The translations under genes were made by a program, and so were the position numbers. From Halichondria panicea (lineage: Eukaryota; Porifera; Demospongiae; Suberitida; Halichondriidae), in assembly GCF_963675165.1 (NCBI RefSeq), contig NC_087384.1, forward strand, positions 3,300,315 through 3,364,314: a stretch of DNA of 64,000 bases, written 5' to 3'. The notes under the pieces are model-generated. The model was given only the letters and a program-made list of their open reading frames with translations, had not been told where the DNA came from and made no database searches. This document shows positions 1 through 35,800 of the stretch, piece after piece (position 1 is the stretch's first letter; every line of letters starts with the position of its first letter).

Positions 1-382
1 TTGTAACTCGGTTACATTCCGTTCTCCTGGATTTTACAACAGTAACAAGAAGCATTACTCAAACAACATGTTTTGTGTATACAATATTAGCATGCAGGAC
101 TGCAACCATATCACTGTTAGATCTACGTCTGATGAACACAGCTTGTTTGACGACGGGAGAGATTATCTGTATTTCGACTTTGGTCAGGTGACCACCACAG
201 TGACTGGTGACAGTATCGGTTCTTTCAGCGAGAGTGTCCCCACCTCTTCATTCTATGCAGTTCTGTGGAGTGATGCTGAGAAATTCACAAGTGCAGGAAA
301 GTTTGAGTTTGAGGCTATGTGCAATGACCCTGTTGCAGATACAGAGAATAAATCGAGTGGTTCAGGGTACCAACACATTTGA
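1..382 (+). CDS. CUB-like secreted protein, type A copy 1 (A1), 5' end outside window
   Basis: This is the second exon of a type A gene; the reading frame enters at base 2 (TGT AAC TCG) and stops at 382. The protein has a CUB-like pattern: TFRSPGFYN, then FCVYNIS, a Cys-Asn pair, DYLYFDFG and FYAVLWSD. It ends with an acidic stretch followed by SGSG. It is almost identical to A3 (18697-19171) and close to A2 (5102-5594). CUB domains are extracellular beta-sandwich modules for binding proteins or sugars. The signal peptide exon lies upstream of the window. The product is inferred to be secreted from its relatives; its ligand is unknown. Confidence 0.8.
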   Translation, partial: CNSVTFRSPGFYNSNKKHYSNNMFCVYNISMQDCNHITVRSTSDEHSLFDDGRDYLYFDFGQVTTTVTGDSIGSFSESVPTSSFYAVLWSDAEKFTSAGKFEFEAMCNDPVADTENKSSGSGYQHI

Positions 383-1545
383 ACATTTGACTCTCTTACT
401 TTCAAGATTTTCTTTACTGTTACATCTAGTAATCAATTCAGTCAACAAATTAATGTTTTATTGCCTCACCTGATAAGATAATTATTGTTCAATCCATGCT
501 TAATATTCTGCATGCATAGACTTATTAAAGGAAGTAATTAAACTTTCAACATGTACTTTTTTCAATGAAGCAACCATGCATGATGTCGATGCAAATATTT
601 AATGGCCTTTATACGCAATAGGGCAATAAAATTATTGATTGTTTTTTTAATTTAGCTGGCACATGCATGCCCGTATGGCCAAGATTGTATATATACACAA
701 TACCTAATAATTATACACATAATTTGGTTACTATTTTCTTCATGTGAAATGTACTTAAGCTTATGTTTGGCTGGATGCTCTCTGCTTGGAGTATAGACTA
801 ACTCCTTAAATTTTAGTTGATTTTGCTAGCAGCTCCAAGGTGTGAAAATTTCAATTTCATTATTATTGTCACATAGAATCTAGATCTAATTGACATTGTC
901 CTATTGGGGGAGCTGTACACAATTTGGGCTGAGAACAAGGCTAAATAGGGTAGCGGCATGCGTTTGTGTGCATGTTGCATTGCAGTCCTTGACAATCATT
1001 ATAGTTCATGCACTAGCTATTGCTGTGTGTGCACTTTGAGGTTCATATGACTCTCACGTCAGGACATAATTATACTGCTGGAGTGAATTTGCATGCTCAT
1101 GCACTAGCTCGTACGTACTGATCTATAGGTGCCATAATTATAGATCTAGGTGTTGATCACTACACATTTTCCCGATAATATTATTGGTAACGGAGACCAC
1201 TCCTTTTTAGGAGGCTGAAAAATCTCTGCTACCACTTTGTTATATATACATAAATTGACTCACTGCATGCTTAGAAACTATGTACATGGCCTGGAATTGA
1301 GGTTCAACCTCCTGTACGGTAAGGTGAGCAATGGGATACTTACATGTCATATAGAGGGTAATTTTCGTGGAGCAAAATATTCGTGATTTTCGTGGTTGAA
1401 GGTCTGACCACGAATATTTTACCCACAAATGAAGCAACCTTGCGTCTTTACCTGCAGTACTTTCATATCAAGTTCTACTTTGCGTCAACAAAGCAATGTG
1501 AGTTTTAAAAGTAAATCGTTCGCATGAATGTGATTTTGTCTTATG
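383..1545. other. 3' flank of A1, no gene seen
   Basis: This non-coding stretch is homologous to the flank after A3 (about 19172-19990); for example the segment around 760-850 recurs near 19625-19710. The array therefore duplicated together with its flanks. Bases 1350-1420 contain an inverted segment (TTTTCGTGG ... CCACGAATATT) that recurs at 38440-38600 and belongs to the CCGTATAGC repeat family. Confidence 0.6.
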
Positions 1546-1549
1546 TAGC

Positions 1550-3468
1550 CATTGCTGTGTGAGTTCAACACGCTAGCAGTGACTAATGGAGTGGCCTCAG
1601 CTACATTTATCTCTCAAGAGTGTCCCTACTCAAAATCTTGTGGACCTTCATCAATGGTACGTACATATCCTATGAATGTTATTATTATGATCTTGATGTA
1701 CATTGTTTGTTCTCTGAATGCTTGTAATAAATTTACATTTTGGCAGCTCTGCATTCTGGGACTATTACTGGAAACAACGTGAAGTTGTCATTTCCTGAAA
1801 ATAAACTCCTTGAATGTGATGGAAAATGTGACAATGCTGAAAGCCACACTATTTGTATTCTGGCTTTTACTCTAGCTGAGATGTCTGCAGGAAATTTAAG
1901 GCAATGTGGTTGGAAATTTCACCGATGTGAGTGCCTGTGTGTACTTTTAACCTCCATCCCCATCTACCCACATATGCAGAAGAGAGTTTAATGTTGAACT
2001 TTCCATTGTGCCCACTTCTAAAGAGTTGACAAAGCTTCTGCAGACACAGTGTATCAAAACGATGGCCTCCAGCTCGAGAAACAGTCCTGTCATCAATGAG
2101 TGCTTCTATGCTCAAAATGTGTACTTGCTAAAAGTTAACTCTTTGTCAAATCATAAGTAGGATCTTACAAACGGTCTATTTAGCGTAAGCTGTCAGTTTC
2201 ATTTGTATGCACACTAACCTGTTGATAAGGATTTTGTACTAACCCACTCCAGGTATCAACCAAGCATTTCTTTTTGGTTGAAATCTGTATTGCTGTGGAA
2301 ACTTCAGTTTGTTGTTCACTTTGAAGTGTCAAAACAACAAGGAAGCTACATCATTAATTGTGAAACTCTTCTTTGGTAAGTCAAAACGTATGTATAACAC
2401 ATATCCTTGGTAATAACTTCCTTGAAAGTGTGCACAAACACTGTTGTATAAAGTTAAAGAGCTGACAATGTTTGCATACAGGGATCATTCAGAAATCAAG
2501 ATTCGGTGGTACCTGTGTGAAAAACATTAAGAGGGTTCTCTTAAACAAAATCTTTATCTTGGTGGGGGTTACACAGGAAGTTCAAAAGCTGATGCAGTCG
2601 TTTACATGTATAGCCCAAAGCTTGACATGTGGAAACTTTTACCACCTAGTCCACTCAAGTGGTTTGCTATAGTGGTCCTAAACTCTCACATAGTTCTGGT
2701 AGGAGGTAAAAGAGACTCTTACTCAGTCACTCTCGTTGGAGTTTACTAATAAAGTGGCCTCGTGGGATCAGGAAATTTCACAGTGGAAGTTTTCACTTCC
2801 GCCAATGTTTAACAGGCGTGTGTCGCCAATCGCTATATCATATGACAGAAATCTAATTGTGGCAGGAGGTAACGTTAGATTATAGTATCGAAATCTTGCA
2901 GAAAACCAACAATGGCAGAATGTATCACAATTGCCTTTAGCTGTACTTCATTGAACACTGTCTGGAATGAACATTGGTATTTTTATAGAGAGTGTGATCA
3001 CACAGTGATTCAAATAAGTCTGAGTAGTCTAACCGCTTGTGCTAAGGAACAAAAACAAAAGACATTGGAATATGGGGGCTACAACTTATGTCCTACTCTC
3101 TAGGCAGTCGAAATAGCGAGCCTATTAATGCATCAACTAAAATTACAGAATGGGAATTCTACAGTCATCTATCATTTACCCCAGTACAAATCTGTACCTT
3201 TCAAAATTATTTGGTTGCGATCAGTAATGAGTGCAGCCCAAAGAAAGAAATTCCAACATTTGCATATGTACCGGAAAGCAACCGTTGGACGAATGTAGGT
3301 AGAATGCCTAAAGAATGTTCGACATCGTCTTTTGTATTGACTAACTCTGGAGACCTATTCCTTGTTGGTGGAGATTCAAATTCTTTCACTGGTAGTCAAT
3401 ACAGTAACAAACTGTTAATGGTAACAATTGTTGCGGAAAATAAGTCCCTGCGTTTGAAATTCACTTAA
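1550..3468 (+). pseudogene. Decayed kelch-repeat gene fragment
   Basis: Fragments in several frames carry kelch signatures. Near 2590-2710 there is a Y-S-P-K-L-D-x-W stretch followed by I-V-L-V-G-G. Near 2765-2880 there is W-x(9)-P-P-M-F-N-R-R, then N-L-I-V-A-G-G. The longest open piece, 3088-3468, has PESNRWTNVGRMP and GDLFLVGGDSNSF. Stops and frame changes separate the pieces, and I find no splice scheme that joins them all. Open stretches at 1552-1660 and 1745-1930 are separated by good splice sites and may be degenerate upstream exons of unknown domain. Kelch repeats form beta-propellers used for protein binding. It lies between A1 and A2 and seems unrelated to them. Confidence 0.5.
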
Positions 3469-3639
3469 GTCTTGTGCATCATCTTTGAGGTTACTGGTCC
3501 TCACCTCTTTGTGTATTGTGTGCAATAATAATAATTATAGCGGCTTACTTTCCTATTAAGTTAACTATTGAAAATTGTCTTTACCGTAATTATATAATGT
3601 ATACAATTGTATAGAGGTGTCAATACAATTGTACATAAT

Positions 3640-4255
3640 AATTATGCATTGAGGCATAGCTGCACGATGAATACGGTAAAGCTGACTGTGTGTGTGTGTG
3701 TCTGTTCCAGTTGTAACTGCTGCAATGCGACGAAAACTAACAGCTTCTATAGACATTCTCTTGGATTTGATTTGTGGATTTGCAAACTAAAGCTTCTCTT
3801 TGCCTCAACAGTGAAGGCTGTTGCAGTCTCTTCAGAATCAGCATCATCTGTTCGCACAAACTTCTATTCAGAGTTAGCCTTGCTATATAGCTGTTTGTTA
3901 ACGGCAATAGCCAGGAAAAACTGCAAAGCTGCGTGCATGTACGTACACTGCCAGCAGCCCTTGTGAACTCTGACCTCATTGCAGATCCACCCTTTTTAAT
4001 TGACAGGAAATACAAAATACTGGTTAAAACTTCTACATTGTAGATCTGCATGCCTATATCCTTTCATCAAGCTGTCAAGACTTTGTTTCCATTAAGCTCA
4101 GCTCTTCTTCTATAATGACTGTGTGGTTCATTGTCATCAATTGCATAATAATTACATAACATTGTACAAAGCAAACTAATTACGTCTTGTAACACTCTTT
4201 GGCGCGAAAGCAAAACATGGCGAGTAGCACAGCGCAGCTTGCACCACTCGTTCTA
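3640..4255. repeat. Dispersed repeat, about 600 bp, copy 1
   Basis: Starting at a (GT)n run, the sequence with GCAATGCGACGAAA, AACAGCTTCTATAG and GCGCAGCTTGCA matches 50070-50590 over its length, with small gaps. Its end (AGCGAAAGCAAAA-CATGGCGAG) also recurs at 26040-26100. No coding capacity is seen. It is a non-autonomous interspersed repeat of unknown class. Confidence 0.7.
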
Positions 4256-4379
4256 CATTAGTAATTCTTTTATGTATAAATTATGGTAATAAAATAGCAA
4301 GTCAACCCGAAGTACCCTAGGCCTGCACTGCATATAGCATTGCGTAATTCACATTCATCAGTTTCCTTCCTTGTCAATG

Positions 4380-4794
4380 TTTGCATAAGTAAGCGTTACT
4401 GCATAGTAAGCGTTACTTTGGAATATTGATAACCAGGGAATTTTAATCAGACGGAAGGAAATAAATGAGTCATCATTAACAGGTTTTTTTGCAATATTTT
4501 GACAGTTTATGTTAATCAGTGACACGCTCAGTCTGATGCAAGCACGTAGATCTAGTGGGTGAAAGCAAACTTTTTAATTCAATTTCCGCGTGGAAATTTT
4601 CCTGGAATTCATTGGTAATTCAGGTAATCAGTTAAGGGAAAAGATGTTGTGTGGGTACACGATTATATACATACATGTAAGCTATTTTATACAGCATCTA
4701 GGTTTGCATTTGAGTATATAAACAGAAACATTCAGCTAACAAAATAACTCAGCAAATCAATTATCCGAAATACAAGAAATACAAGATATACAAG
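4380..4794 (+). promoter_or_regulatory. Type A promoter and 5' UTR (A2)
   Basis: This block is duplicated almost base for base upstream of A3 (8130-8562) and as a relic at 23412-23690. It has a TATA box, TATATAAA, at 4715-4722, about 73 bases before the ATG at 4795. The conserved block starts with GCATAGTAAGCGTTACT. Conservation of the whole block in all copies points to a shared core promoter for the array. Confidence 0.65.
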
Positions 4795-5594
4795 ATGTGT
4801 TATCTCATTTATCTGCTTGTGCTTTCCTCTATATACTGCATACTGGGATCACCAATTGCACAAGACTGCAATCGCGTCATTGTCAATGAAAGAGGCAGGC
4901 GGTCACTTGTCGGTGGTTATAGAGATCACATTTCAGTGGGATTGGGGAGAGAGTGCTTCGAGAGCATCAGTGATTTGCATGTGGAAGAAAAGTAAGTTTT
5001 GCTTTTACTGTATATTATGCATGGCTGGATAATTATGGGAGTAACAGGGAATTGCAGTTCTAATAATTACATGATTTGATTGTTTTTTCGCCATCTTGCA
5101 GTTCTGTAAGATGTTTCAAATGGAGACTGAGAAATAGCGGAAATGTTCAACTCAATGATCGTGAACGAGAAGTACCAACCAAAAATCTCACTGTTTCTAC
5201 TTGTAACTCGGTTACATTTCGCTCTCCTGGATTTTACAACAGTAACAAGAAGCATTACTCAAACAATATGTTCTGTGTATACAATATTAGCATGCAGGAC
5301 TGCAACCATATCACTGTTAGGTCTACGTCTAGTGAACACAGCTTGTTTGACGATGGGAGAGATTATCTGTATTTCGACTTTGGTCAGGTGACCACTACAG
5401 TGACCGGTGACAGTGTTAGTTCCTTTAGCGAGAGTGTCCCCACCTCTTCATTCTATGCGGTTCTGTGGAGTGATGCTGAGAAATACACAAGTGCAGGAAA
5501 GTTTGAGTTTGAGGCCATGTGCAATGATCCTGTTGGTAACAGTGCTGTTACAGAGAATGAATCGAGTGGTTCAGGGTACCATCAACACACTTGA
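4795..5594 (+). CDS. CUB-like secreted protein, type A copy 2 (A2)
   Basis: Two exons, 4795-4991 and 5102-5594, joined across a 110-bp GT-AG intron; the split Asn codon gives NSVRCFKW. Exon 1 encodes a signal peptide (MCYLIYLLVLSSIYCILGS) and the start of the mature protein with one Cys pair. Exon 2 holds one CUB-like domain (SPGFYN ... FYAVLWSD ... FEFEAMC). The C-terminus NESSGSGY is an acidic-SGSG motif of the kind used for glycosaminoglycan attachment. The protein is about 230 aa and appears intact. The start follows a conserved TATA promoter. It is inferred to be an extracellular or matrix protein; the ligand is unknown. Confidence 0.85.
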
Positions 5595-6130
5595 ACATTA
5601 TTACTGTTATTTTCAAAATTATCTTTTCAATACTGTAATCATTTCAGTCCAACAAATTATTGCCTCACCTGATAAGATACTGTTGAATCCATGCTTAACT
5701 TATATATGCATAGATTAATATGAAGGACGTATCTTAATTTTTTATTATAGGAGAATTGAACGAAGCAACCATGATGTTGTTGATGCATGTGATGAAATGG
5801 CCATGCAATAGGGCAATAAAATTATTGTGCGGGAAAAATCTCGTGCTACCACGATGTTATATATATAGACTATACGTTGACTTACTGCTATATCTGTATA
5901 TGGAGGATGACAAAGTATCAACTGTTACTCTGTATTAGGAAATTGCCTTAAACAAACGTATGGTCCCCAGGTACTCTCCCAGGAATTGCAATTGATATCG
6001 ACCAAATATGAAATATGACAGCTTAGGAATGCTGAGTGTAGTTGTATACCCGGTACATTTATAAAAGGCAGTGAAAAGGTAGTCACTCAAAACTTCAAAT
6101 CTGGATCATTTCGAAATCATCCATCCAACC
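5595..6130. other. Intergenic A2-B1, with B-type promoter at its end
   Basis: There is no gene. Toward its end lies TATAAAAGGCAGTG (about 6060-6073), which is shared with the B2 promoter at 20532-20546 and forms the TATA box of the B-type genes. The segment also recurs around 20380-20600. Confidence 0.55.
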
Positions 6131-6150
6131 ACAATTATTGCGACACAATC

Positions 6151-6964
6151 ATGTCTTTAGGTCTACTTCCATCAATCTTTCTGGTTGCAGTATTATCTCT
6201 TTGAGTTTGGCACAAGATTGTGATAACATCATAGTCAACAGAAATGCCAGCCCGAGAGGAGGTATTTTTAAGAAGTTCCAAGATCACGAAACAGTTGGAT
6301 TGACACGAGAATGCCTCGAAAATAGAGTCCGTGTGGAAAAGAAGTGAGTACTAATTGTTTCATTACATACATGGCATGTGCATATCACCACTAACTGTAT
6401 AATTTATAGTAGTGCACCACATTGTATATATGAACTTCTGAGCATGCACAGAATAGATATGAGTATATATATTTCTTCTGTAGCTCTGTACGTTGCTTTA
6501 AATGGAGAGTAAGGACCAGTAAGCAAGTACAACTCAATGAACGACATGTCTCAAGTCAGAAACTTATCACGGAAATTCCCGGTGATTCTGTGACATTTCG
6601 TTCACCTGGATTTTACAATCAAAACACAAAGCATTACTCAAACAGCATGTTTTGTCTGTACAACATATCTGTGGACAAATGCAACCACGTTACTGTTGCA
6701 TCGAGTAGTGGACACACATTGTTCAATGACTCTAAAGACTACCTTCAACTGTACTTGGGTAACAAGTCCTCCCCCCTGTTTGGAGAGAGTGTGAGTACGT
6801 TTGGAGATGATGCTCCTACTGGGTCCTTGTATGCAGTGCTATGGAGTGACGCTGTACCTCGCACAAGCAGGGGAACATTCGAACTAACTGCCACTTGCCA
6901 TTCTTGGGATAATGAAGAAGAGGGATCAGGATCACTTATCTTAAACACTTCTACCAATTTTTAG
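6151..6964 (+). pseudogene. CUB-like secreted protein, type B copy 1 (B1), signal peptide frameshifted
   Basis: Exons 6151-6343 and 6484-6964 match B2 closely, but B1 has two extra bases (TATCTCTTTG against TATCTTTG in B2) near 6198. From the conserved ATG at 6151 the frame stops at TGA after 17 codons. An upstream ATG at 6138 is in frame with the rest and gives MRHNHVFRSTSINLSGCS before the conserved SLSLAQDC, which is a poor signal peptide. The rest is intact: CUB-like domain (FRSPGFYN, FCLYNIS, LYAVLWSD) and acidic-GSGSL near the C-terminus. It may be a recent pseudogene, a copy using the alternative start, or an assembly error. Confidence 0.65.
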
Positions 6965-7790
6965 ACTGGCACTTTTTTTCTGCATCATCATCATTATTTC
7001 AGTTGTAGGTACACCCAACATATTATATCTCAGCTTCATTTCAATTTTAATTTGCAGAGAATGCATGCATAAGCAAAATGTTATAAAGCACAGGAATTAA
7101 TGTGCTCACACTTGTCGGTGGTGGTTGAACTAGCCACCTCTAGACAAACATAAGCACCACTAGACAAACCTCTTAGTCTGAGTTTACCAATAATAGGCGA
7201 TAAAAAGGTAAATGTGTGTGTTGAATGAGATTGAGGATTGAAAATAGCCACAACTTCGAAAATTAACGTGTGCGCATCATTAGCAGGAATGTGTTAGGTA
7301 TAGCTGTTCTGAGTGCTTGTGATAGCAGCTCTATCTGACAGTGAGTGCATGAGATAATTATAATATATAGTCCTGCATGCATACGTGTGACATAGCCCTG
7401 TCAGCCGAGTGTATATACATAGCTATACTGGGTAGAATCTTGTTCCTGGAGCTGTATAATTATTGTATATGTTAATAATTATGACCTTTTTGTCCGTATA
7501 TAACAGCCATCTCTCATATGTACATGTCATCCAGGTGCAGTGACTACTCATACATCAAGTGTAAGAAGATGGACTTATACTGTCTGATATATCTGCACTG
7601 CCGCAACCACCTCAGTCATCCTCAATGACCTCATGTATGCTTACATGTACTATATTCGAGTTTGAGCAGCTAAGCCTTTACATGTATATAGGTCTCTGTT
7701 ACACTGAGAAGCTTTTGAAGGCGTGATATATCCAATACCATAGCTAGTCAAAGTACAATACCTATAATAATTATGAGCCTTTGATAATTT
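6965..7790. other. 3' flank of B1, no gene seen
   Basis: Non-coding and homologous to 21415-22100 after B2, with indels. It confirms that A and B were duplicated as a pair together with their flanks. Confidence 0.6.
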
Positions 7791-7794
7791 GATT

Positions 7795-8135
7795 AACAAA
7801 TGAATGAAAGCACTGCGGGTGCTGATGCCTCAGTGGATGTGTAAAAACTATATAACATAGAGCTACTATAGCTGTATTAGCAATATTATTGCTGATACAC
7901 ACAGCACTGATGATGGATTAATTTTGCTGCATGCAGGCTAATCTGTAATCGCAGGGAAACTGACCATGATTGTGATGCTAAAAATGATGCCAAAAGTACA
8001 AAGTCTAAAATTAATGGCTGCTGCATCATGATCAGTAGAGCTCTCTTCTCACTCTTGCAGCTACGAATAGCTAGCTTTCTAGTGCAGAACTAACTACTAA
8101 GTAGAGTATAGCAAACTCCACGGACAAGTTTTACT
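7795..8135. repeat. Dispersed repeat, copy in B1 flank
   Basis: It contains GCACTGCGGGTGCTGATGCC and, at its end, CTCCACGGACAAGTTTTACTACG. The reverse complement of both landmarks is found at 26470-26650, and the first landmark also at 24395-24430. No ORF is present. Confidence 0.55.
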
Positions 8136-8562
8136 ACGTTACTGCATAGTAAGCGTTACTTCGGAATATTGATAACCAGGGAATTTTAATGTCTAATCAG
8201 ACGGAAGGAAATAAATGAGTCATCATTAACAGGTTTTTTTGCAGTATTTTGACAGTTTATGTTAACTAATGTCACCAGTGACACACTCAGTTTGATGCAA
8301 GCACGTAGATCTAGTGGGTGAAAGCAAACTTTTTAACTTTTTAATTCAATTTCCGCGTGGAAATTTTCCTGGAATTCATTGGTAATTCAGGTAATCAGTT
8401 AAGGGGAAAGATGTTGTGTGGGTACACGATTATATACATACATGTAAGCTATTTTATACAGCATCTAGGTTTGCATTTGAGTATATAAACAGAAACATTC
8501 AGCTAACAAAATAACTCAGCAAATCAATTATCCGAAATACAAGAAATACAAGATATACAAGA
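8136..8562 (+). promoter_or_regulatory. Promoter of A3, severed from its gene
   Basis: It matches the A2 promoter block (4380-4794) almost exactly, including TATATAAA at 8482-8489, up to the bases just before the start codon. The 9.8-kb element 8563-18367 then intervenes, so the A3 ATG (18371) is now about 9.9 kb from this TATA box. Confidence 0.8.
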
Positions 8563-8597
8563 AACACATTCACTGTTAAAAGTTCCCTTTCTCTTTT
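8563..8597 (+). repeat. Left terminal inverted repeat
   Basis: Starts AACACATTCACTGTTAAAAG. It matches the reverse complement of 18333-18367 with one mismatch in 35 bases, and without mismatch in the outer 24. Confidence 0.93.
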
Positions 8598-8815
8598 GCA
8601 GGATCAGAATAGAATTCACTGTTTTATTAGTTAAGTGAAACAAAAATTGTTTGATTTTTTGTCTATTTGTAAATCTTATCTGCATTGTTATGTTATTGTT
8701 GTATTCCATGGTTATGTTAACTTGTTTTTATTGACTCTGTTTAGCATACTAGATTTGGAGAAGCTAACAGAGATATATTTTGTATCACGATAAACAGAAT
8801 GAAATATACACAACA

Positions 8816-11800
8816 TTAGGTGTTACTTTGCTTTAGCTCTTGGTATACACTCTTTAAATGTTCTATTGTCTTTTTACGTAGATGACCGGTGGACGTCAAC
8901 TGGAAATCGTACAAGAGTATTGAGGATTTCGTGACTGAATCTTCCCACTCAATTCGCTTCCTCTTGTTTTCTGGATCCTGTCTTCTTGCCACTTTCCATT
9001 TGCTGTTGTACTTCCCTTCCATCCAGACAACTCCTACCTCTGAATCTGAGATCGATCGAAGTTGAGCAATCCATGGCTCAATGTTACTGCTTGGACAGCT
9101 TCTGACTGCCAGCAACTGATCAATCTTGAGACCTGCTAAATCCTGCACCTCCCTAACGTCTGTCCGTGATTGCTTTCGGTAGGCCCCAGTCTACACCTGT
9201 ATGACATTGAATTTGAAGGTAGATACCATGTGAACAAAGCAACCTAAATTTAGGAAGCCTACTCAGTGACCTAAATTTAGGGATGGTATAATTTGTGTGT
9301 GTGCATGCACACATTGACCTAAATTTAGGGAATTGTGTGTATATACTTATGCATTACGTATATACCTAAGTTGAAGAATTATGCAAAGTGACCTAAATTT
9401 AGGTTATTATAAATTTAGGGAAAGTGCAATAGGTGTGCTGAACTGTCGTATAATTATTGCTTACATTGCACTCTTCATTCTCTGCAGCAAATAGAGCTTG
9501 AAGCTGGGTATTCTGAGGCGCATCACAGCTCATATCTGCTGATCCTGAGGCTGGGAGTTGGGCCAGTTGACGAACTGTGTAATAATTATTAGAATATAAG
9601 TGATATACGTAATGTAAAGTATATTATGGTGTTACGTATATAATTCTGATTGAAATGAGAGTTTGCTCACCTTCTTGGAGATGTAGCAAGGGCCAGGGGG
9701 TAATTCCAAATTCATCATCAGAGTAGACAGCGTCCATATCAAATTGCTCCCACCAAATACGAGCATCATCAGAGATCCAAGAATAAAACTTTGGAATATC
9801 TATGTGTAGACGTGGCAGGTCTATCTTGTTGTCAGACAAGTGAACTCTATTTGGAATGCCACATGGAATCTCCTGCACAGTAAACATTTTGCATGTAAAG
9901 TTAAAAGAGTGTAATTTGATCTATACGAATGCATGAGCTTAATTTATAGCCATAAGAGGTGTAGGTCGATAAATACATTGTCCATTTTTGTTACAGTAAA
10001 ATGCACGAATCAGCGAAAATTTAACCCTCAAAAATGTTACGCTATATAGTGCAAAATCCAAATTTTTATGAACATAATAGGCACATTAATTTTTTAAAGA
10101 ATTCAAGAATCGAATGGGTGTATTATCAGGGCCTAGAGAGCTGTAGAATATACTTATGGTTCGAACTTCAGCGTCTGTAAAAAACTGCTATTAATTATTA
10201 TAACAACTGCATACACCCTAACACAAAGTGTGTTGCCATACATAATGTGCTTGTACGGTATTTATTATGATCACTGACAAAAAAAACGTTATTACATGCG
10301 GACTTGCCAGAAGTAGTTTCACTGCTACATCAGCATTGCACCAAGCATCACTGCTCCAATGCCGAAAATACATCACAGCTTTCCCATCTTCTAAAAAGAA
10401 TTTGAAGCAATGTGGAAGAGAGTGACCATTTAGTCTGTCAATACAAGGTTCCAGCCACGACCTCACATCAGAAATAGTATTGAGTACCTCAACCGTTGGG
10501 GTAGGTGTGCTTGACTGTGTAATCTGCTTTTGGAGATCTGTACAATTTTACATGCAACAATAATTATGTAATGTCACAATCAATTCAAAACCAACCTTAA
10601 TAAATTTTAGGAAGTATAATTATAGCTATAATTATAATTGACCACCATGCATAATACCTACATACTACATGTATAATTATGAATGCATAATTATTACCTG
10701 GTAAAGATTCAGCTCCTTTTAGAGTGAGCTGCTTAGATATCCTTGAGAAAAGCTGGTCAATGTCCTCATGAGTATGACCAACAGGTAGGAAGTTTACCCG
10801 CACCTATTATAGCACAATGTATACAGTGTCATATGCATGCATGGGCAACCATGCATTGACAATGTGTGCATGAATGATTATAATTATAGTCATTAGGGCA
10901 GGGCAGTGCATGCAGTTGCTATGTAATAATTACTATAATGATACCTTAGTGAATATCTTTCGTTCTACCAACAATGCGCAAAACCCCAGGAAGAACTTGT
11001 TTTTGTTTTCTTTTGCTGTATTGTCCAGTTGGATGTTGAGAACTGGTGGGAGATGATCTAGAGCAATCAAGGATTTGAGCAGCACATGAATCGTAACGTT
11101 GCAGTCATGAGGGAATTGCAGCATGTCAATGTAGACGTGAGCTAACTTTCCATGAGGTGCCCGGGTGTGTACTAGCACTCCAGTGACGTGTGTTCTGAGA
11201 GGAAGCAATCCCTGCACAGACTTTGGGATCTTTGCGAGGCGAGGAAGATTGGTCTTGTGCTGATCCATGCCATCAATGATGATGGTAACACTGTGTTGTG
11301 GATTTGTTCTAGATTTTTCCCGATGACCATAATACTTCCGCCTTTCTTGCCTGTCACCATAATAATAATAGCAAGATGGAATAAAATTCGTATGCATATA
11401 ATTGTGAGTCCCATGCACCCATGCATAATTACGTTTTGGATGTATAATTATGCACATGGGACGAGTAATTTAGGTACATTTTATTGCTGTCTGACTAAAG
11501 GCAAAGAATTAATTGCGTGGAAATGTAATGTGTACTCGAATACAAGGTAAAGGCTTGCAGAGTCACTTACTGAACAATCTGTAGATGTTGATCATACTCC
11601 TCCTTAAATTCACACCTCCATCCACTCTTCATTCTTTCCTGGTCAAACTTAGTGCAAATATCACACTTGCTGAAAGCGCTTTGCTGTAAATTGGATAATT
11701 ATATGGTTATGGTTATATAATAATAGTATAATAGAATACTTACACTGGGAATGAGCACCTTCGAAAAATCTTCTTTCCAAAAGCGGTAAAAGGTAGAAAC

Positions 11801-12964
11801 TTTCACAACAGCATCTTCTGGGATTCCTCCAGCCATGAGCTCCCTCTTCATCCTGACGTACACATCGTACTTAGTGAGGAAATGAGGAAGGTGTACACGA
11901 TCGATGTTAGGCATCTGATCTCCAATGAGATTAAAGTATTGCCTCATCCAAGTCTTGGCTTCAGACGTTTTTGAGGCCTCGGCTCTCACGTGGGGTTTTC
12001 TAGTGGCTTTGTGAATGCCATTTGAGAATTGTTCGGTTACTGTTTTGAATCTCTTGTTTGAAATTCCAAGAATATTCAAGAAGGCGTTCTTGCATACATG
12101 CTTTCCTTCGAGCATCATCGTAAGCTTGCTTGAGCTCGATGATTGTCTGCTTGACGAGGGAATAAATATCAATGAGGTATCAAACAGAAACTGTTTCTGG
12201 TCAGCTCTTCTCTTTTTGTTAAAGATACCTCTAACTTTCTGTACTTCCTGCTGAGTAAATGCAGCAATACACACCCTTCCACAACATTGAAACCGATGAG
12301 AGCTTACAGGAGATTCACTCTCATATTCCAAAGGATCTTCTGTCCTTCGCTTCTTGACAGGTGTTGAATTCAAAGGAGCTTCAAATTGGGGATCAAAATC
12401 CATGAGTTCGAGTAGTTCGGAGTCAGCATCACAGTTAGTGAAGCTGGAGGACACAAACAACTCTTGGCTGCTGTCTACAACAGGAGATAAGAGCAGAGAG
12501 TTTTGCGTGTTGGTAGTCATGCTTGTCTCTGGAGACACAATAAGAAGGGAGTCTTGCGCTATGCTTGTTTCGAGTTCTGGTGACACAAAGAGGAGGGAGT
12601 CTTGCGCTATGCTTGTTTCGAGTTCTGGAGACACAATGAGGAGAGAGTCTTGCGCTATGCTTGTTTCGAGCTCTGGAGACACAATAAGGAGAGAGTCCTG
12701 CGCTATGCTTGTTTCGAGTTCTAGTTCTGGAGACACAATGAGGAGAGAGTCTTGCACTATGCTTGTTTCGAGTTCTGGAGACACAATGAGGAGAGAGTCT
12801 TGCTTGTTGTTAGCTATGCTAGCAGGAGTGCATGCACCCCTGATGCTAGTTTGTGAGTCTTGCTTACTGCTTGTCCCTGGTGACACAATAAGGAGAGAGT
12901 CTTGGCTATAACTGCCATCATAGAGAGGACATGAATCATTCATCATTGCATGCATGCAAGCCAC
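8816..12964 (-). CDS. DUF7869-like transposase candidate
   Basis: Eight exons: 12964-11744, 11683-11571, 11350-10945, 10803-10698, 10537-10296, 9872-9671, 9574-9465 and 9190-8816. All introns are GT-AG and phase-consistent, giving about 924 aa. The N-terminus is disordered with 16-residue repeats (QDSLLIVSPELETSIA). A Cys-containing CCGRVC segment and a helical region (HVCKNAFLNILGISNKRF) follow. The core has acidic landmarks IIDGMDQHKTN, NIQLDNTAKENKN and LPVGHTHEDIDQ, spaced as in RNase H-fold DDE nucleases. GFCALLVER and the HTHEDIDQ box are typical of the DUF7869 family of animal mobile-element proteins (family recognised from memory). It is the presumed transposase because it lies within the TIRs. 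No frame breaks are seen. Confidence 0.82.
9242..9420. repeat. Left subterminal palindrome cluster (CCTAAATTTAGG)
   Basis: CCTAAATTTAGG occurs at about 9243, 9270, 9318 and 9392, with a half copy AAATTTAGGG at 9411-9420. The cluster starts about 680 bp from the left end, in the last intron of the transposase gene. A matching cluster is near the right end. It is likely a protein-binding array such as transposase sites. Confidence 0.75.
12530..12912 (-). repeat. 48-bp coding tandem repeats in transposase exon 1
   Basis: About seven copies of a 48-bp unit (plus-strand core GAGTCTTGCGCTATGCTTG) encode 16-aa QDSLLIVSPELETSIA repeats. One copy has an extra two codons (ELELE), and the outer copies are more divergent. 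The region is likely disordered. Confidence 0.85.
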
Positions 12965-13136
12965 AAATCATGCGCACTGAACTATCACACCTGCGGGTTC
13001 ACGCATGGCTACTTTATTGCGCATGCGCCGATGGACTAGCACTATTCAGCTGCATTTAAAACTGCACTGCACTGCGCTGCACTTAGTAGTACGTGCTTAG
13101 CTACTGTAGCTCCCTAGTTTACAGCATAGGTGAAGA
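12965..13136. promoter_or_regulatory. Bidirectional spacer/promoter of the transposon
   Basis: These 172 bp separate the two divergent start codons. It contains the palindrome TTGCGCATGCGCC and CTGCACTGCACTGCGCTGCAC. There is no clear TATA box. It must hold the 5' UTRs and the core promoters of both genes unless further upstream exons exist. Confidence 0.5.
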
Positions 13137-16100
13137 ATGCCTGCAACCAAGAGGTGGCACTTTGAGTTTCTCGTGGGTGGAGTCAGTGGTATCACTGTGT
13201 ACAAGAATGGTGCAAGGATTAAGAGCTACAAACTCCCAAATCGCCCAGTCTTGGAAAGTGTATATTCAATAGGTACTCCTTCTACTAGAAAGACTTGTGA
13301 TAAGGTTAAAGAATACCTAGATCAAGCCATTGAGGTAAGCTATAATGTATAACAATGTTGTAATTTTAGTAATAAGCACCACAGATATAATCCTGGTTTT
13401 TATTGGTCATACAGGTCACATTTAAATGCAAGACTACTGTGCTCCTGAACCGGAAGGAGTTTGAATGGAATAAATCAGCATTTTGTCGACTGTTGAGGCT
13501 GTCTCCTGGGGCGAGAGCAGTCGACTTCATTCAAGTCTTCAACCAACTGACAAAGGTATCATAATAATGTGTCTTGCCCATTTCTGCGTGATTGCTAAGG
13601 TGTACAACAGTTGATACAGTCCCTGTTTTCACATAGGAATAATGGGGGGGGGGGTCATATAGATCCTTGTGATAGGGAAAATGTAATAATTGATGTACAA
13701 TGCGTTTTTCATGTACATCACTTGTTTACATACATTGTACATAAAATTAACATAATAATAACTCTATATAATTATAAAGTTTACTTAATAATTATAGTAT
13801 AGAGTTCATGTATGATCGCTAACCCACCAATATATAACCGTTCAAATTGCTGTCTGCATGCATGCTTATAATAATTATTATATACCCATGCATGCATCAT
13901 GCGTGGGAAAACAGTTGAACATACAATCAGTGCATGGCAATCAATGTTTGTACGTGTGAATTCTATATCTTGACATCATGCACTGTATACAAACCTCGTG
14001 TTTATAATCTACACTAGCTAACCTGATAAGGTATTAAAATTGTTACAGCAGCTATATGTATGTACATATTCTTACTTTATCTACAGTTTAATTCTGACCG
14101 AGGCTTCTTAGTTCCTGTAAGCCCCCTGCCCACCAGTTCGGAGTTGCTAACTGAGGAGGCGTTGTCTGATGGTGGTGACTCTGAGGATGACCACCCGCTG
14201 TCTTCATTGACAAGTACCCAAAGCATAGACGGCAGCCACCAACTTGGAGAAAAGAGAAGTCAGCAGGAGGAGGAAGTATCGAGAAAGAGGATGAAGCACA
14301 AAGATACTATGGACGATGCGATCTTCACCAAGAAGATTGGTAAGCTGCATGTGTGCCAACTGTATCACACATGCAATTTCAACCTTGCTTGCGCATGCGC
14401 ACCAAGGCACAATTGAACTTCTCTCACTTGATATTGTATATGCATGCATGCAGGAACTATTGATCTCCAGCTGAGAAACCTCTCAGAACCCAAAACACAA
14501 CGCTGTTTAAGAACGGTTGACACTGTATTTGTGGAGGAACTAGTGAAGAAGTTCACTAAGGATCCCTCTGCTCCAGGTGTACCTCCGATTGCTGTCCTGT
14601 GCATTTCTGTCGAGAGCATAGATGTGTTTGACACCAACAGAGTGGACGCCTATAAGTACGAGCTGCTTGGAGGCCAGCATACAGCCTTGGCAAGAAGGAT
14701 AGTAGCAGCCAAGTCTTCAGACAATACGTTGCTACAGACTGTCCTTGCTGAGGTGTATGTTGGTCTGACAGACGATGAAGCACTTAGGCTCGCCTCTCGC
14801 CACAACACAAATAGTCATTTTATCCACAAGATGACACATCGGGACTATGTAAGTTAAAGAATTCAAAATTCCTCTAAGAAATAAGCTGTGTTCATTCATT
14901 TTGCTATGATTATAGCTTGAGGCCTGCCGATCGAAACTGTTTTCAATGTGCGGTAAGGCTCCTGAGGAGGAAACCCCAAAAGACTCGGTGGAATGGAAGG
15001 ATGTGTGCAAGCGATGCATTTTACCTCAGGTATTATACTATTTCGTCTGTTAATATACATTGTACTTTACAGAACTGATCCATGCATGCTCATAATATTT
15101 GTCCAAATCTTAGGATATGGGCCGCTGCACAATGGAGAATATCTTTAAGCAGGCAAGCTTTACTAAGGAAGTCTGGGCATTGGCCGTATCGGTCATGAAC
15201 TTGTACGAGGAGGGGGAGCTGAAAGATCAGACCCTCTCAACAAAATCTCTGACTACAAAGCCCGAGTTTAAGCAGCAAAATTTTAGCCCAATCCAGTGCC
15301 TTCCTGATGAGTTCAAGCTGGAAATGTTATCAAAGGTATACAAGCGCTTGAGAAGATTTTCTATAGACAAAATAATATTGTTACGTATAAAGAAGCACAT
15401 GCAGAGGTATAATATAGGAGCCTGACAGCGTAATCTATTTATATCTGCATTGAAGTTGTTATGAAGTAACAGTTTTTTAGATCATGTTTGCCTGCAATCT
15501 GATTGGCTATAGAGGAAGTGTTCTATCCAACTTAGTATACTTACCGTATAGCGCGAAATTTTTGAGGCACTTATATTTCGTGGATTGGCCTCTAAAAACC
15601 ATTTCGTTGCACAATGTTCGCGGAATGACTGCTTACGGGAAGCCACGCCTTTAAATATTTGCACGATAGCAGGTAATTCTAATTAAAGAACAATTTTCGT
15701 GGACTTAATTTTCGTATAGAATTCTAACCCACGAAATCCGCGAAAATTAAGCCCCTCGAACATTTCGCGCTATACGGTATTTACTTCACTTATGTAGCAA
15801 AGATTAGATAAGAATAGTGCATGATTGACTAAATTGAGAATCATGGTTGCTATATTATGCATGATCTATATAATCAGGGCTAGTAGAACCCTCTCTACAC
15901 GTTCGGGATACTACAACCATGCAGCTCTAAATGTTAATTATTAATTTTCCAGGTTTCAAGCAGTGAGCTAAGCCTTGCCGAATTAAAGGAAGAAGCTACC
16001 AGCTACAGATCAAGAAAGTCTCTGCAAAGGGCTTTTTGCAAGTAAATTAACAATCACATGCATGCATTTGTATAGACACTGTTTAGGAAGTTTCTAGAAG

Positions 16101-18101
16101 CCCAAAGGGCTGGTAATTGTAGTATCCCGAACGCGGTGAGGGTTCTACTAGCCCTGACTCGTGAGGACTTCTAAATCATGTGAAAACTTCCTTTTTTTGA
16201 TCTAAAGTGTATTATTTCTATAATCACATTTTTTAAGTTAAGTATAATTCCATCCCAGGATAACTACTTCCAGTACGTGGTGCGAGGCAAAATGTAGATT
16301 TCCTGCCTTCACTACCCCAGAGCGTCTGAGGACATTCCACCAGATATGTTTAACCAAAACAATACCGGCGTCTTTTCGTTCATATTGTGAGGCAGCTCTA
16401 AAAGCAGAAAAATCAGGCAGCACAGACACTGTTGTCCCCTCGGCTGATATATATAAGTTCAGGCACTGCAAGGCTTATGTGGTCGAAGGGGATGCAGCAA
16501 ACATGTGCTGCCAAGATGTTAGGGATGTCTACCCTACATTCATGGGCTCAAATCTCTTCCTGGCTGACATACCCGTGGTATAATTATGTGCATGCATGCA
16601 CGTACAGCTATAACACATGTATATGTTATAGCTACGTATATAAACACTCCTGATATTATACTTACATGTTGTTCAACTTCGTGCAGGCGTGGACAACAGA
16701 ACAAATTCAAAGCCTTGTGTACACCACAAAACAGCTGAATACAATACCCGAGAAAACTGTGAGCACATTTAATGTTGCATTGATTAGCACCAGTCTCTCA
16801 AAAATTGAAGAACTGAAGAATTGTTTGTTGAAGTGCTACGAACACGTCAGTGTGTGCTACTGGCAGACAGCGTGCACAGGTAAACTATGTTCAATAATAA
16901 TTCATCGACATTATACATTTAACAACTTGTGTCACACGGTGTGTGCAAATCCATCGGTTTTTCGCCTCTGCTATAATTATACACTCAAAATAACAACGCT
17001 ATAAATATTTCGCATGACTGTATATAATATTTATCGTGTAACAACTGTATAATAGCGTGAACTTTTTCGAGGTGCTTAATTTTTCCTGATTTCGTGGGTT
17101 GCAATACTACTAATTATCTGCTATAACTCGCAAAGATTTAAGGTGTGGCTTCTGGTAAGCACGAACATTGTGCAACGAATTGCTTTTAGAGGCCTTTACA
17201 AAATATATAAGCACCTCGAACATTTCGCACTATTATGTACACATGCAGCCTATTATATCGTACATAACTATAAGCATAATAATTATTATACAGCCCATAA
17301 TCATTATTGTTATAGGTGGCTTAGATTCCACTCATCCACTGGGATTTATCCCATCAATTGGTTGTGTGGTAGTGGGACACTACTCACTCAGTGGAAAGCT
17401 GGAGGAGGACCACTTTAACTTCGTTGAGGAAGGGCGGTCCAATTTCTTCCCCTGTATTGATCAATCCACTGCTAAGATTCCGATTTGTGTGCTGACAGGC
17501 ATTATAAAGAAGCTGTCTTTTGAAGGGAGCACTGTTATTGATGCCACAAGTGAATCTGGTAATTATTATAGGATGACAGTGCATGCATGCATGATTACTA
17601 TTATTTTTATGTTTTAGATACCCAGCATGATTGTGATGTACAAACAACTATGGACCACCTGCCATGATAGTCAGATAGTTTCGGCCTTGTTGGGCCTCGT
17701 CAGCATAGCGTAGTTGTATATATGTAATGAGTACATGTAATAAGATTACATGCATAATATTATATACATGCACATACATGTAATTATCATGTGTATAATA
17801 GTGCATGGGAATGTATCCATGCATGCACATGTACACAAGTAGAGTTCATGTATGCATGAAGTTTACCTAAATTTAGGTATTATTATAATGCAACTGTCTC
17901 TAAATTTAGGTACAACGTACAAAGTTAATGGTACATGTAAACCTAAATTTAGGTAGAATTGCATAACACATCGTTTCATGCATGCATGCAGGTAACTGTG
18001 CAATTGCCTCACTACAAGCAGGAAGAGATGTGGTGGTACTCAAGGCATTGGCCCAAGCAGCACTTGCAAGAAGCCAGCTTGCAGAACTGTCAACAACATA
18101 G
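13137..18101 (+). CDS. ParB-like domain / N4-N6 DNA methyltransferase-like fusion protein
   Basis: Eleven exons: 13137-13334, 13415-13555, 14087-14339, 14454-14848, 14916-15029, 15114-15335, 15953-16041, 16259-16577, 16687-16879, 17316-17558 and 17992-18101. All are GT-AG and phase-consistent, about 758 aa. Residues about 198-330 resemble ParB/Srx-like domains: a beta-rich start, GGQHTALARR at about 270 (family G-x-H-R-x-x-A box) and LTDDEALRLASRHN. Residues about 540-758 follow beta-class methyltransferase order. LFLADIPVAW sits at motif IV (family D/N-P-P-Y/W); then strands and a variable region; IPICVLTGIIKKL as motif X; and TVIDATSESGNCAIASLQAGRD as motifs I-II (family DPFxGSG). Motif IV lacks both prolines and the aromatic residue, so methylation activity is doubtful. 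ParB-methylase fusions are known from phages and bacterial mobile DNA. The role is perhaps DNA recognition by the transposon. Confidence 0.75.
15542..15779. repeat. CCGTATAGC-family MITE in intron 6 of the fusion gene
   Basis: Inverted ends TACCGTATAGCGCGAAATTT ... CGCGCTATACGGTA. It is very close in sequence to the copy at 31694-31921, including the internal GGAATGACTGCTTAC and GAAGCCACGCCTTTAAA. A diverged relative is at 17045-17235 in intron 9. Confidence 0.8.
17864..17954. repeat. Right subterminal palindrome cluster (CCTAAATTTAGG)
   Basis: Copies lie at about 17866 and 17942, with a near copy TCTAAATTTAGGT at 17899. They are 413-503 bp from the right end, in the last intron of the plus-strand gene, mirroring the left cluster. 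Confidence 0.75.
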
Positions 18102-18332
18102 CTAGCTATGGACTAGACTATACTATACTGTTTCAAGCGTTCCGTTAACTTCTATGTTACTTTGTATATGCGGAGTATACGACTCGATCTTCATCTTATT
18201 GAATGTTCATCTGGTTAAGCAAGTCAATGGGTATCAATAGAAAATAATTGGTGTTCTCTAATCTTTGAGAAATTAACAGGGATATTAAACTAAAAAAAAT
18301 GATTATGAACAAAAAACATAGCATATTAAAAT

Positions 18333-18367
18333 AAAAGAGAAAAGGAACTTTTAACAGTGAATGTGTT
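18333..18367 (-). repeat. Right terminal inverted repeat
   Basis: Ends ...CAGTGAATGTGTT at 18367 and is followed by the AAGA target duplication. It mirrors 8563-8597. Confidence 0.93.
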
Positions 18368-18370
18368 AAG

Positions 18371-19171
18371 ATGTGTTATCTCATTTATCTGCTTGTGCTT
18401 TCCTCTATATACTGCATACTGGGATCACCAATTGCACAAGACTGCAATCGCGTCATTGTCAATGAAAGAGGCAGGCGGTCACTTGTTGGCGGTTATAGAG
18501 ATCACATTTCAGTGGGATTGGGGAGGGAGTGCTTCGAGAGTATCAGTGATTTGCGTGTGGATGAAAAGTAAGTTTTAAATTTACTGTATAATATGCATAG
18601 TTGGATAATTGTGTGAGTAATGGGGAATAAAACTATACATGCAGTTCGATGTAATAAATGATTACATGATTTGATTGTTTTTTCTCCGTCTTGCAGTTCT
18701 GTGAGATGTTTCAAATGGAGACTGAGAACTAGCGGAAATGTTCAACTCAACGAACGAGAAGTACACCCAAAAAATCTCACTGTTTCTACTTGTAACTCGG
18801 CCACATTCCGTTCTCCTGGATTTTACAACAATAACAAGAAGCATTACTCAAACAACATGTTTTGTGTATACAATATTAGCATGCAGGACTGCAACCATAT
18901 CACTGTTAGATCTACGTCTGATGAACACAGCTTGTTTAACGACGGGAGAGATTATCTGTATTTCGACTTTGGTCAGGTGACCACCACAGTGACTGGTGAC
19001 AGTATCGGTTCCTTCAGCGAGAGTGTCCCCACCTCTTCATTCTATGCAGTTCTGTGGAGTGATGCTGAGAAATTCTCAAGTGCAGGAAAGTTTGAGTTTG
19101 AGGCTATGTGCAATGACCCTGTTGCAGATACAGAGAATGAATTGAGTGGCTCAGGGTACCAACACATTTGA
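18371..19171 (+). CDS. CUB-like secreted protein, type A copy 3 (A3), disrupted 5' UTR
   Basis: Exons 18371-18567 and 18697-19171; intact signal peptide and CUB-like domain as in A2, about 223 aa, ending ENELSGSGYQHI. It is nearest to A1. The ATG overlaps the last base of the AAGA target duplication, so the transposon's right end is directly upstream. Its natural TATA promoter is 9.9 kb away at 8482. Expression would need a promoter in the transposon end or splicing over the element. The coding sequence shows no decay, which suggests a recent insertion. Confidence 0.85.
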
Positions 19172-32822: not shown

Positions 32823-32850
32823 TAAATTGGCGACGAGGAGTTAGAACTCT

Positions 32851-35800
32851 ATGATGGCTACAGGACTGCTTGGGCACCTCGAGCAATTCGATCCAGCGTT
32901 GGAGGAATGGCCGCAGTATGTGGAGAGACTCGAACAGTTTTTTGTTGCGAACGATATCACTGGAGATGGTAGTGCTGTGAAGAAGAGAGCTACCTTTCTC
33001 GCAGTGGTGGGCCGTAGTGCCTACAATCTGCTGCGAAGTCTAATTGCACCAGCAAGGCCTGCAGAGAAAACATTTGAGGAGCTGGTGGAAGTGCTTACTG
33101 CACACTACAGTCCGAGGCCTACCGAAGTCATGCAACGTTTCCGATTCAACTCTAGAGCGAAGAAAGAAGGAGAGTCTATTGCTGACTATGTAGCTGCGCT
33201 GAGGAAGCTAGCCGAATTTTGTAATTACGGTGCTGCATTGGACAAAGTGCTATATCTACGTGACAGGCTAGTGTGGGGAGTCAAGGACACCTACATACAG
33301 AAGAAGCTGCTAGCAGAACGAGAGCTGACATTGGCTACGGCTATTCAGATTGCTCAAGGTTCTGAGACTGCAGAGAAGAACCTTCGTGAGATGGGAAGCG
33401 AATCCCATAAAGAAGGAGTACATTACGTCCAGAAACAGACGCCGAAACCGATTAAAACTAACTCGAAGTGTTATCGATGTGGCAAGACGAGTCACAGTGG
33501 CAATGACTGCCCGTACAAGGACTTTGTGTGTAGAGGATGTCATAAAGTGGGACACTTGCAAAAGATGTGTCGAGCTGCCAAGGGACGCCCAAACCCAAAG
33601 AAGTTCCCTCGACATGACAAGTATAAGAAAAGGGCTGGAATAAACCAAGCAAGAGAGTCTGGAGAATCAGATGACGAAGACTTCCTGCTGATGGTAGAAG
33701 TTGGAGGAATCCACAGGATCTACCAGCCCCCAATAAAAGTACCCGTGAGTATAGAGGGTACTACTGTGTGTATGGAACTAGACACAGGTGCCTCAGTATC
33801 TCTAGTATCAGAGTCACAGTACAAACAGTTGTGGCCAGGGAGGAGCTTAGACCCATCTGATATCAACTTACAGACCTACTCAAAGGAACCCCTTGTAGTA
33901 ATGGGAAGTTTTGATGTTGAGGTTGTGTATGATAACAAAAAGGTGACCTTACCTCTTGTTGTTCAAGGGAATGGACCTTTGTTGTTTGGCAGGAACTGGC
34001 TAAATGCTATTAAGTTGAATTGGTCTAACATTCACTATACCCAAGCTCCAGGTTTACAGGACTTACTGGCCAAGTACCCCGATGTGTTCCAGAAAGGACT
34101 GGGTACGTACCAGGGACAAGAAGCCTCCCTTGTAGTGGACGCTGATGCTGTTCCCCGTTTTAACAAAGCCAGACGTCTTCCATATGCTATGCGAACGAAA
34201 GTGGAAGAGGAACTGGAGAGGCTGGTTCAGGAAGGCACTCTGAAGCCCGTGGACTATGCTGAATGGGCCGCACCAATTGTGGCAGTGTTAAAGAGTGATC
34301 GAACGAGTGTGAGAATATGTGGCGATTTCCGAATGACAGTTAACCCCGTTTCTAAACTCCATCGTTACCCCCTGCCGAAGGTGGAAGATTTATTTGCAAC
34401 CCTGGCTGACGGAAAGATCTTTACTAAATTAGATCTGACACAAGCTTATCAACAGTTAAAGCTTGACACCCAATCTCAGAACTATGTGGTAATCAACACC
34501 CTAAAAGGGTTGTTCCAATACACGAGATTACCTTTTGGAGTGTCATCAGCCCCTGGCATTTTTCAGAAGACCATGGAGACCCTGCTACAGGGTATTGCTG
34601 GGGTAGTGGTGTATTTGGACGACATTTTGATCTCTAGTGCAACCGAAGCGGAGAACCTGAAATCACTCGAGGAAGTGTTGAAACGCCTATCCGAAGCTGG
34701 TTTGCGAGCCAAACGAGGCAAGTGCACGTTCATGGCTCCATCTGTCGAGTTTTTGGGTCACCTGGTTGACGCTAAGGGTATCCGACCCTTACCTGAGAAA
34801 GTCCGTGCTGTCCAGCAAGCACCTACCCCTACCAATGTGACGGAACTGAGGTCCTACATTGGATTGATTTCTTATTATGGGAAGTTCCTACCGAATCTAG
34901 CCACTCGTTTAACACCATTGTACAAGCTGTTAAACAAAGATGTGCCATGGAAATGGTCATCTGAGCAAGAACTTGCTTTTAACAGGTCGAAACAGCTGCT
35001 GACATCAACAAATCTGTTAGCTCATTACAACCCCCAATTACCTATTGTTCTGGCCTGCGATGCCTCTGCATACGGAATTGGAGCCGTACTTGCTCACCAA
35101 ATGCCTGATGGTACCGAGAGACCGATAGCCTATGCTTCTAGGACTTTGAATTCGGCTGAAAGAAATTACTCGCAGCTTGAAAAGGAAGGACTGTCCTGTG
35201 TTTTCGGAGTAAAGAAATTCTATGCATACCTATTTGGTCGAAAATTCACTCTAATTACGGATCACAAACCGTTATTGAGCCTGCTGAGTGGACAGAAACC
35301 AACCTCATTACAAGCCTCCGCAAGGATTCGTCGATGGTCATTGGCACTGTCGATGTACGAGTACGAGCTGAAGTTCCGAAACACTACAGCTCACGGTAAC
35401 GCAGATGCTTTGAGTCGTCTGCCCTTAACTGACACTGTTCCTGATGACCGAACACCACCAGAACTGGTGCTCTTACTGGAACATCTCGATTCCTCACCGA
35501 TCACGGCTGCACATATCAAAGAGGCTACCAGACGAGACCCAGAACTCTCTACTATTCACCAGTATGTGCAACAAGGATGGCCACACCGTTCCGCCATGGA
35601 AACCAGTCTAATGCCCTTTTATGAGCGACGAGAAGAACTTTCAGTACATGATGGTTGCTTGCTGTGGGGAAATCGTGTGGTGGTACCCAAGACCTACCGA
35701 GGTGATGTGCTCGTACAACTGCACGAAGGACATCCTGGCACCACTCGCATGAAAGGACTATCGCGTATGTATGTGTGGTGGCCTGGTATTTCGAAAGACG

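Follow-up and report, generated by a model that had tools for sequence, protein, structure and literature searches.

Organization and termini of the element

The 64,000-nucleotide stretch of the Halichondria panicea genome analysed here (NC_087384.1, positions 3,300,315 to 3,364,314 of the forward strand), hereafter called the window, contains a 9.8-kb element at window positions 8563-18367. A minus-strand gene of the DUF7869 family (8816..12946) encodes a likely transposase, and a plus-strand partner gene (13137..18101) encodes a putative ParB-like protein with a degenerate DNA methyltransferase part. The left 35-bp terminal inverted repeat (TIR; 8563..8597, plus strand), which starts with AACACATTCACTG, and the right one (18333..18367, minus strand) are identical at 34 of 35 bases, and the element is flanked on either side by AAGA as a target-site duplication (8559..8562 and 18368..18371). 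A 20-base TIR core with up to two mismatches occurs 25 times in the 131-Mb genome, compared with 0 for the reversed control. An earlier reading of the window from the sequence alone (the sequence-only reading) had proposed a real DNA transposon with two open, divergent multi-exon genes, and the TIRs, the AAGA duplication and the two open frames bear this out. Thus, the element in the window is a real mobile DNA transposon.

In four copies of its family, F1, the two ends stand in normal order: the window copy (AAGA), C8:5623577-5633398 (GACA), C11:2900100-2911263 (CTAT) and C12:5015753-5024325 (ATAT). The AAGA, CTAT and ATAT duplications are clean, and GACA requires one extra base at the right end. 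All four two-ended copies examined of a second family, F2, whose ends start with AACACTCTCTC, are flanked by duplications of TTAA, TAAC, TACA or TATA. A 4-bp duplication is therefore present in seven of the eight two-ended copies across F1 and F2, the remaining one having the extra base. Since TTAA is found at just one of the eight, a Kolobok-type TTAA specificity is rejected. PMC3627910 gives a 4-bp target-site duplication for Sola2, and PMC12477816 describes Sola1-1_Ec32 of the brown alga Ectocarpus, in which a ParB-methyltransferase gene lies opposite the transposase. The duplication length and this layout both favour an assignment of the element to the known Sola superfamily, with DUF7869 as the Sola transposase. 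This assignment is possible, if somewhat doubtful, and it would be compatible with the mechanism that we prefer below.

Predicted DUF7869 transposase

The minus-strand gene consists of eight exons (12946-11744, 11683-11571, 11350-10945, 10803-10698, 10537-10296, 9872-9671, 9574-9465 and 9190-8816) in a splice model in which joins 4 and 5 had alternatives. Its 918-residue product contains 16-residue repeats in the N-terminal part, which are encoded by a 48-bp tandem repeat (12528..12803, minus strand). The spliced protein matches DUF7869 (PF25273) with an E-value of 8.5e-68 in a Pfam scan, so the family assignment of the sequence-only reading is upheld. The modelled structure of a DUF7869 homologue has a fold resembling those of Mos1 and retroviral integrase, suggesting that the DUF7869 protein is likely to be a DDE transposase. 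DUF7869 proteins have conserved D, D and E residues, consistent with an RNase H-like fold with an acidic triad, the candidate catalytic residues being D465, D548 and E587. Foldseek alone ranks a Tn7-type transpososome chain at the top (E 2.4e-4), which is the sole match below 0.001, and Argonautes, endonuclease V, integrases and unrelated chains follow at lower ranks. DUF7869 has 310 relatives at E≤1e-3; among the 120 listed, those with a named source come from invertebrate animals and many others are metagenomic, and the word "transposase" occurs in no name shown. The TIRs, a duplication of fixed length and a predicted RNase H-like fold with an acidic triad, by which DDE/D cut-and-paste transposons are recognized, are each found here.

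The last exon of the DUF7869 gene (8816..9190, minus strand) encodes a C-terminal domain related to the C-terminus of NIPBL, the cohesin loader. The DUF7869 profile matches a PDB chain named "Nipped-B-like protein", presumably the human one, at its very C-terminal end with an E-value of 1.3e-11, and single sequences also match there (E 1.4e-9 by phmmer for the last exon in the window and E 1.3e-4 for the F2 tail). In the reverse direction, the NIPBL C-terminal stretch matches 20 of the 120 retrieved DUF7869 proteins at E≤1 and has 21 matches in the sponge genome, 14 of them at E<1e-4; 13 of these 14 are inside or adjacent to transposons of this type, the other being at C1:13138537. No such domain is found in 4.5 kb across the 3' part (C4:7145800-7150300) of the sponge NIPBL gene (C4:7149992-7151198), where an intron-split domain could escape detection. 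These sequence matches indicate that the transposase tail is homologous to the NIPBL C-terminus, and the domain in the cohesin loader may be either transposon-derived or shared.

Putative ParB-like and methyltransferase parts of the partner protein

The partner gene encodes 758 residues in 11 plus-strand exons (13137-13334, 13415-13555, 14087-14339, 14454-14848, 14916-15029, 15114-15335, 15953-16041, 16259-16577, 16687-16879, 17316-17558 and 17992-18101). In agreement with this splice model, the NCBI models P0001 (471 residues) and P0122 (321 residues), from contigs of two other copies, jointly span residues 1-758 with identical joins, and an NCBI H. panicea protein matches the gene with a rounded identity of 100% over 62% of its length. 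The exon at 14454..14848 (plus strand) encodes the candidate ParB-like domain (GGQH...LASRHNTNSHF). An alignment of the partner proteins of four families contains invariant GG.H and LASRHN.N.HF.H..THR blocks, and we take GG.H and RHN to correspond to ParB boxes. Around the GG.H block, two of the four paralogues match DUF6551 (E 0.0035 and 0.024) and one matches a PHROG ParB-like family (E 0.0072), all at sub-threshold level. The domain of the window protein itself matches neither of these families nor PF02195, and the exon folded alone gives a pLDDT of 51. The invariant blocks and the paralogue matches hint that the partner protein may carry a ParB-like domain. A Pfam scan of both element proteins contains no ParA ATPase partner, no search aimed at ParA having been made.

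The last two exons (17316..18101, plus strand) encode the end of a beta-class DNA methyltransferase that bears motif I. Pairwise hhalign comparison of the C-terminus with phage DNA adenine methylases gives an E-value of 1.3e-6 over 42 columns with 40% identity around motif I, compared with 3.6e-5 for the whole partner protein and 0.3 each for its ParB-like and middle parts. Sub-threshold methyltransferase matches are also found in PHROG (E 0.0027, window protein) and NCBIfam (E 0.088). Motif I lies at residue 715, in a permuted C-terminal position, and ADIPV stands at residue 573, where DPPY is expected. None of the four families has DPPY at that place; in this gappy part of the alignment they read ADIPV, TSHS, TGLPE or ADITP, and the glycine-rich loop is altered. 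Because the motif of the S-adenosylmethionine (SAM) site is kept but DPPY is absent, the partner is probably not an enzyme; its methyltransferase part is very likely non-catalytic, and methylation is unlikely. The label of a ParB-methyltransferase protein in the sequence-only reading thus holds for the SAM-site motif and not for the catalytic one, and its ParB half corresponds to sub-threshold matches in paralogues. If the partner were an active DNA methyltransferase marking the DNA of its own element, as has been proposed for algal proteins, the resemblance to phage adenine methylases and the PHROG match would be accounted for, and the algal analogue is, according to PMC12477816, a predicted N4C/N6A enzyme. 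The substitutions at the DPPY place, even as read from a gappy alignment, and the altered loop make this explanation highly improbable.

Relatives of the partner are confined to H. panicea in a search of 5.8 billion proteins, in which the single sequence gives one match and the four-family profile two, with the best 7,994 candidates scored each time. No relative is confirmed among 111 pattern matches in viral contigs or 35 in prokaryotic genomes, and the bacterial origin suggested for the partner gene by the sequence-only reading gains no support from these searches. Phage searches with the partner give chance-level matches only, in 2 and 9 records with E-values of at least 5, a DNA adenine methylase among them, ParB_N is found in none of 10 viral records, and the partner profile has no useful match among PDB sequences.

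Copies of the element and recent movement

A 438-bp query from the left end matches seven genomic places at 98-100% identity over all or all but two of its bases. Of 12 F1-type places fetched, four are the two-ended copies, one on C3 has its ends back to back, and seven are single-ended within the fetched stretch. A TIR-based genome search, which the sequence-only reading had proposed for finding further 4-bp-duplicated copies with both genes, yields the C8 copy, in which both genes are open as they are in the window copy; the two copies differ by 46 substitutions per 9,845 aligned bases. The C11 and C12 copies show no difference in 8,577 bases yet are inserted at different sites, indicating that the movement of F1 is recent. 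The copy at C3:1891844-1901667 is circularly permuted: it runs from element bases 7798-9805 through the two joined ends, which a single base separates, into bases 1-7811, and 14 bases are repeated at the outer breaks. In the simplest reading, this copy would be an excised circle reinserted elsewhere.

The C11 and C12 copies have lost the same element bases, 5163-6660, and with them exons 3-5 and half of exon 6 of the partner gene, and the DUF7869 gene is open in both. Copies that lack either gene and are nevertheless autonomous are what the sequence-only reading had named as evidence against itself, and in part these two copies bear on this, having moved very recently without an intact ParB-like gene. 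Their movement is the strongest fact against a role of the partner in transposition. Assistance in trans by full copies, unproven as it is, would account for it.

Conservation of the two-gene layout and selection on the partner

Genome searches yield at least 21 ParB-like and at least 35 DUF7869 loci. A DUF7869 locus lies within 15 kb of 13 of the 21 ParB-like loci, one of which (C1:8433024) may belong to a neighbouring element, compared with an expectation of less than 1% per locus. Conversely, 13 of the 35 DUF7869 loci lie near a ParB-like locus, and 22 have none nearby. At about 4 kb from C4:2471635, counted as an unpaired ParB-like locus, there is a match to the transposase tail. ParB-like and DUF7869 loci are crowded within about 430 kb at C1:8.11-8.54 Mb.

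Since many loci are copies of each other, the families provide the independent count. F1 is the family of the window element, F2 is represented by C1:8261165-8269411 and C7:3992060-4009354, F3 lies near 8.42 Mb on C1, and F4 near 4.83 Mb on C14. These families differ by 35-61% in the DUF7869 protein and by 45-66% in the partner, F3 and F4 being sisters in both genes, and the gene pair is head to head in all of them. The F2 gene models are stop-free, with the partner model incomplete at its C-terminus; the C7 copy has two stops in the transposase model. The ends of F4 and the right end of F3 were sought and not established, and an F4-like element on C6 has no clean duplication (TACT versus AACT).

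In the pair of intact F1 copies, seven synonymous and three replacement changes separate the ParB-like genes (dN/dS 0.12, Fisher p 0.002), whereas the numbers for the transposase genes are seven and five, respectively (dN/dS 0.20, p 0.006). Between two F2 copies, dN/dS is 0.27 over 459 codons for the ParB-like gene (p 0.0005) and 0.40 for the transposase gene (4.5 and 6.5 changes, given no p-value). The partner gene is therefore under purifying selection. This selection and the retention of one layout in four diverged families argue that the partner is an accessory component and not baggage, in agreement with the earlier proposal of an accessory factor that came with the element. They also speak against a passenger gene with no role in transposition. 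Such a passenger would fit the very recent movement of the two partner-deleted copies, and PMC12477816 reports many accessory genes of unknown role in algal giant transposons, but we consider it very unlikely.

Palindrome arrays and the proposed mechanism

Each F1 end is accompanied by an array of palindromes. The left array (9243..9403), four CCTAAATTTAGG placed 681-841 bp inward of the left end, lies in the final intron of the transposase gene. The right array (17866..17953), two CCTAAATTTAGG and one shortened copy, CTAAATTTAG, placed about 410-500 bp inward of the right end, lies in the final intron of the ParB-like gene. There are 59 occurrences of CCTAAATTTAGG genome-wide, compared with four of its reversed control, and 49 of the 59 lie within F1-family elements (43 among the 50 places listed and six in the C12 copy). 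The palindrome is kept in diverged C5 copies (86-93% identity in matching blocks) and in a solo end on C6. The other families have arrays of their own. In F4, the 10-base core ACAAATTTGT occurs 14 times on both outer sides of the gene pair, 12 of them inside the full GTACAAATTTGTAC; in F3, GTACAAATTTGTAC occurs three times on one side and once past the other gene; and it has 41 occurrences genome-wide, compared with 0 for the control. F2 has 16 CACGTG sites, of which 15 lie no more than about 760 bp from an end, mostly in repeats reading GGACCCACGTG, and its repeat word GGACCCACGTGTG has 35 occurrences genome-wide, compared with one for the control. Four 10-kb control stretches of the window contain one recurring palindrome, with three copies in one stretch. 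A 1,715-bp F2 derivative, in which the genes are reduced to a stub, keeps both ends, both arrays and a clean TACA duplication, which points to the ends and arrays as the DNA parts that movement requires.

Further clusters of GTACAAATTTGTAC lie at C3:400993-401444, which adjoins the best NIPBL-tail match, C6:2282507-2289975, C7:5738793-5742866 and C11:5123549-5123637, and these are probably more elements of the F3/F4 type. Seven copies of a 20-base word similar to the F1 end, with a final G instead of C, are spread over 480 kb at C13:5504396-5982391; the one such place fetched contains no CCTAAATTTAGG.

We consider it probable that the element is a cut-and-paste transposon whose likely DDE transposase is the DUF7869 protein, with the ParB-like protein as a non-methylating accessory that likely binds the end arrays. 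The transposase would perform the DDE cut-and-paste chemistry, and the partner, rather than the transposase, would recognize the palindrome arrays near both ends, thereby bringing the ends together or licensing their cutting. The NIPBL-like tail of the transposase may serve chromatin contact or target choice. Spm/En provides a functional analogy only: it has an accessory DNA-binding protein, TnpA, which acts similarly on the Spm ends, and clusters of short repeats near both ends, but its transposase superfamily, repeat and protein are all different.

The transposase itself may bind the palindromes, leaving the ParB-like protein otherwise employed, for example as a silencing shield or in insulation. 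Weak helix-turn-helix or winged-helix matches in a few of 49 DUF7869 proteins scanned, the DUF7869 loci without a ParB-like neighbour and the mobility of the partner-deleted copies are in line with this, but the ParB-like reading would make palindrome binding natural for the partner, and we regard binding by the transposase as unlikely. A bolder scenario, that a plasmid-style partition pair of a ParB-like clamp and parS-like arrays became the end-recognition module of an undescribed animal superfamily, DUF7869, whose transposase tail was later built into NIPBL, seems more doubtful still.

Other features of the window

Elsewhere in the window, a frame at 32845-36843 (plus strand), which runs uninterrupted for 1,332 codons, belongs to a Ty3/Gypsy-type retroelement and contains domains for reverse transcriptase, RNase H and integrase, and a single open frame of 695 residues at 45904-47991 (plus strand) encodes a protein kinase domain followed by NHL repeats.

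Comparison with known transposons and implications

ParB-methylase-like proteins are known from green and red algal transposons, as PMC12477816 states in citing Iyer 2011 and Petroll 2025. Like the sponge element, Sola1-1_Ec32 is there a large eukaryotic DNA transposon with a gene for a ParB-like and DNA methyltransferase protein on the strand opposite the transposase. It differs in that it is a 21.5-kb algal element called Sola1 with a predicted N4C/N6A methyltransferase, whereas the sponge elements are 8-10 kb long and have a DUF7869 transposase, a partner that has lost the catalytic motif and palindrome arrays near both ends. Fungal TET/JBP transposons (PMC12730594) likewise carry a DNA-modification-related gene beside the transposase, but the enzyme is of the dioxygenase type, and the superfamilies and duplication lengths are others. 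The sequence-only reading knew of no described animal transposon with such a layout. Among the matches listed from the open-licence full-text literature, there is indeed no animal transposon with a ParB-like gene, but the layout itself has its precedent in Ectocarpus (PMC12477816). No paper in that literature names DUF7869. Judged by sequence, the sponge case thus appears to be a variant, without known animal precedent, of a partnership already known from algae.

The large orphan family DUF7869 gains a proposed function. With a tail common to the transposase and NIPBL, phylogeny could test whether transposons contributed to the cohesin loader. The question why transposons recruit ParB-like proteins can be addressed with these elements, which have moved recently and carry intact gene pairs, and an animal case in which the catalytic motif is lost would argue that DNA binding, rather than methylation, is the reason why the partner is kept.

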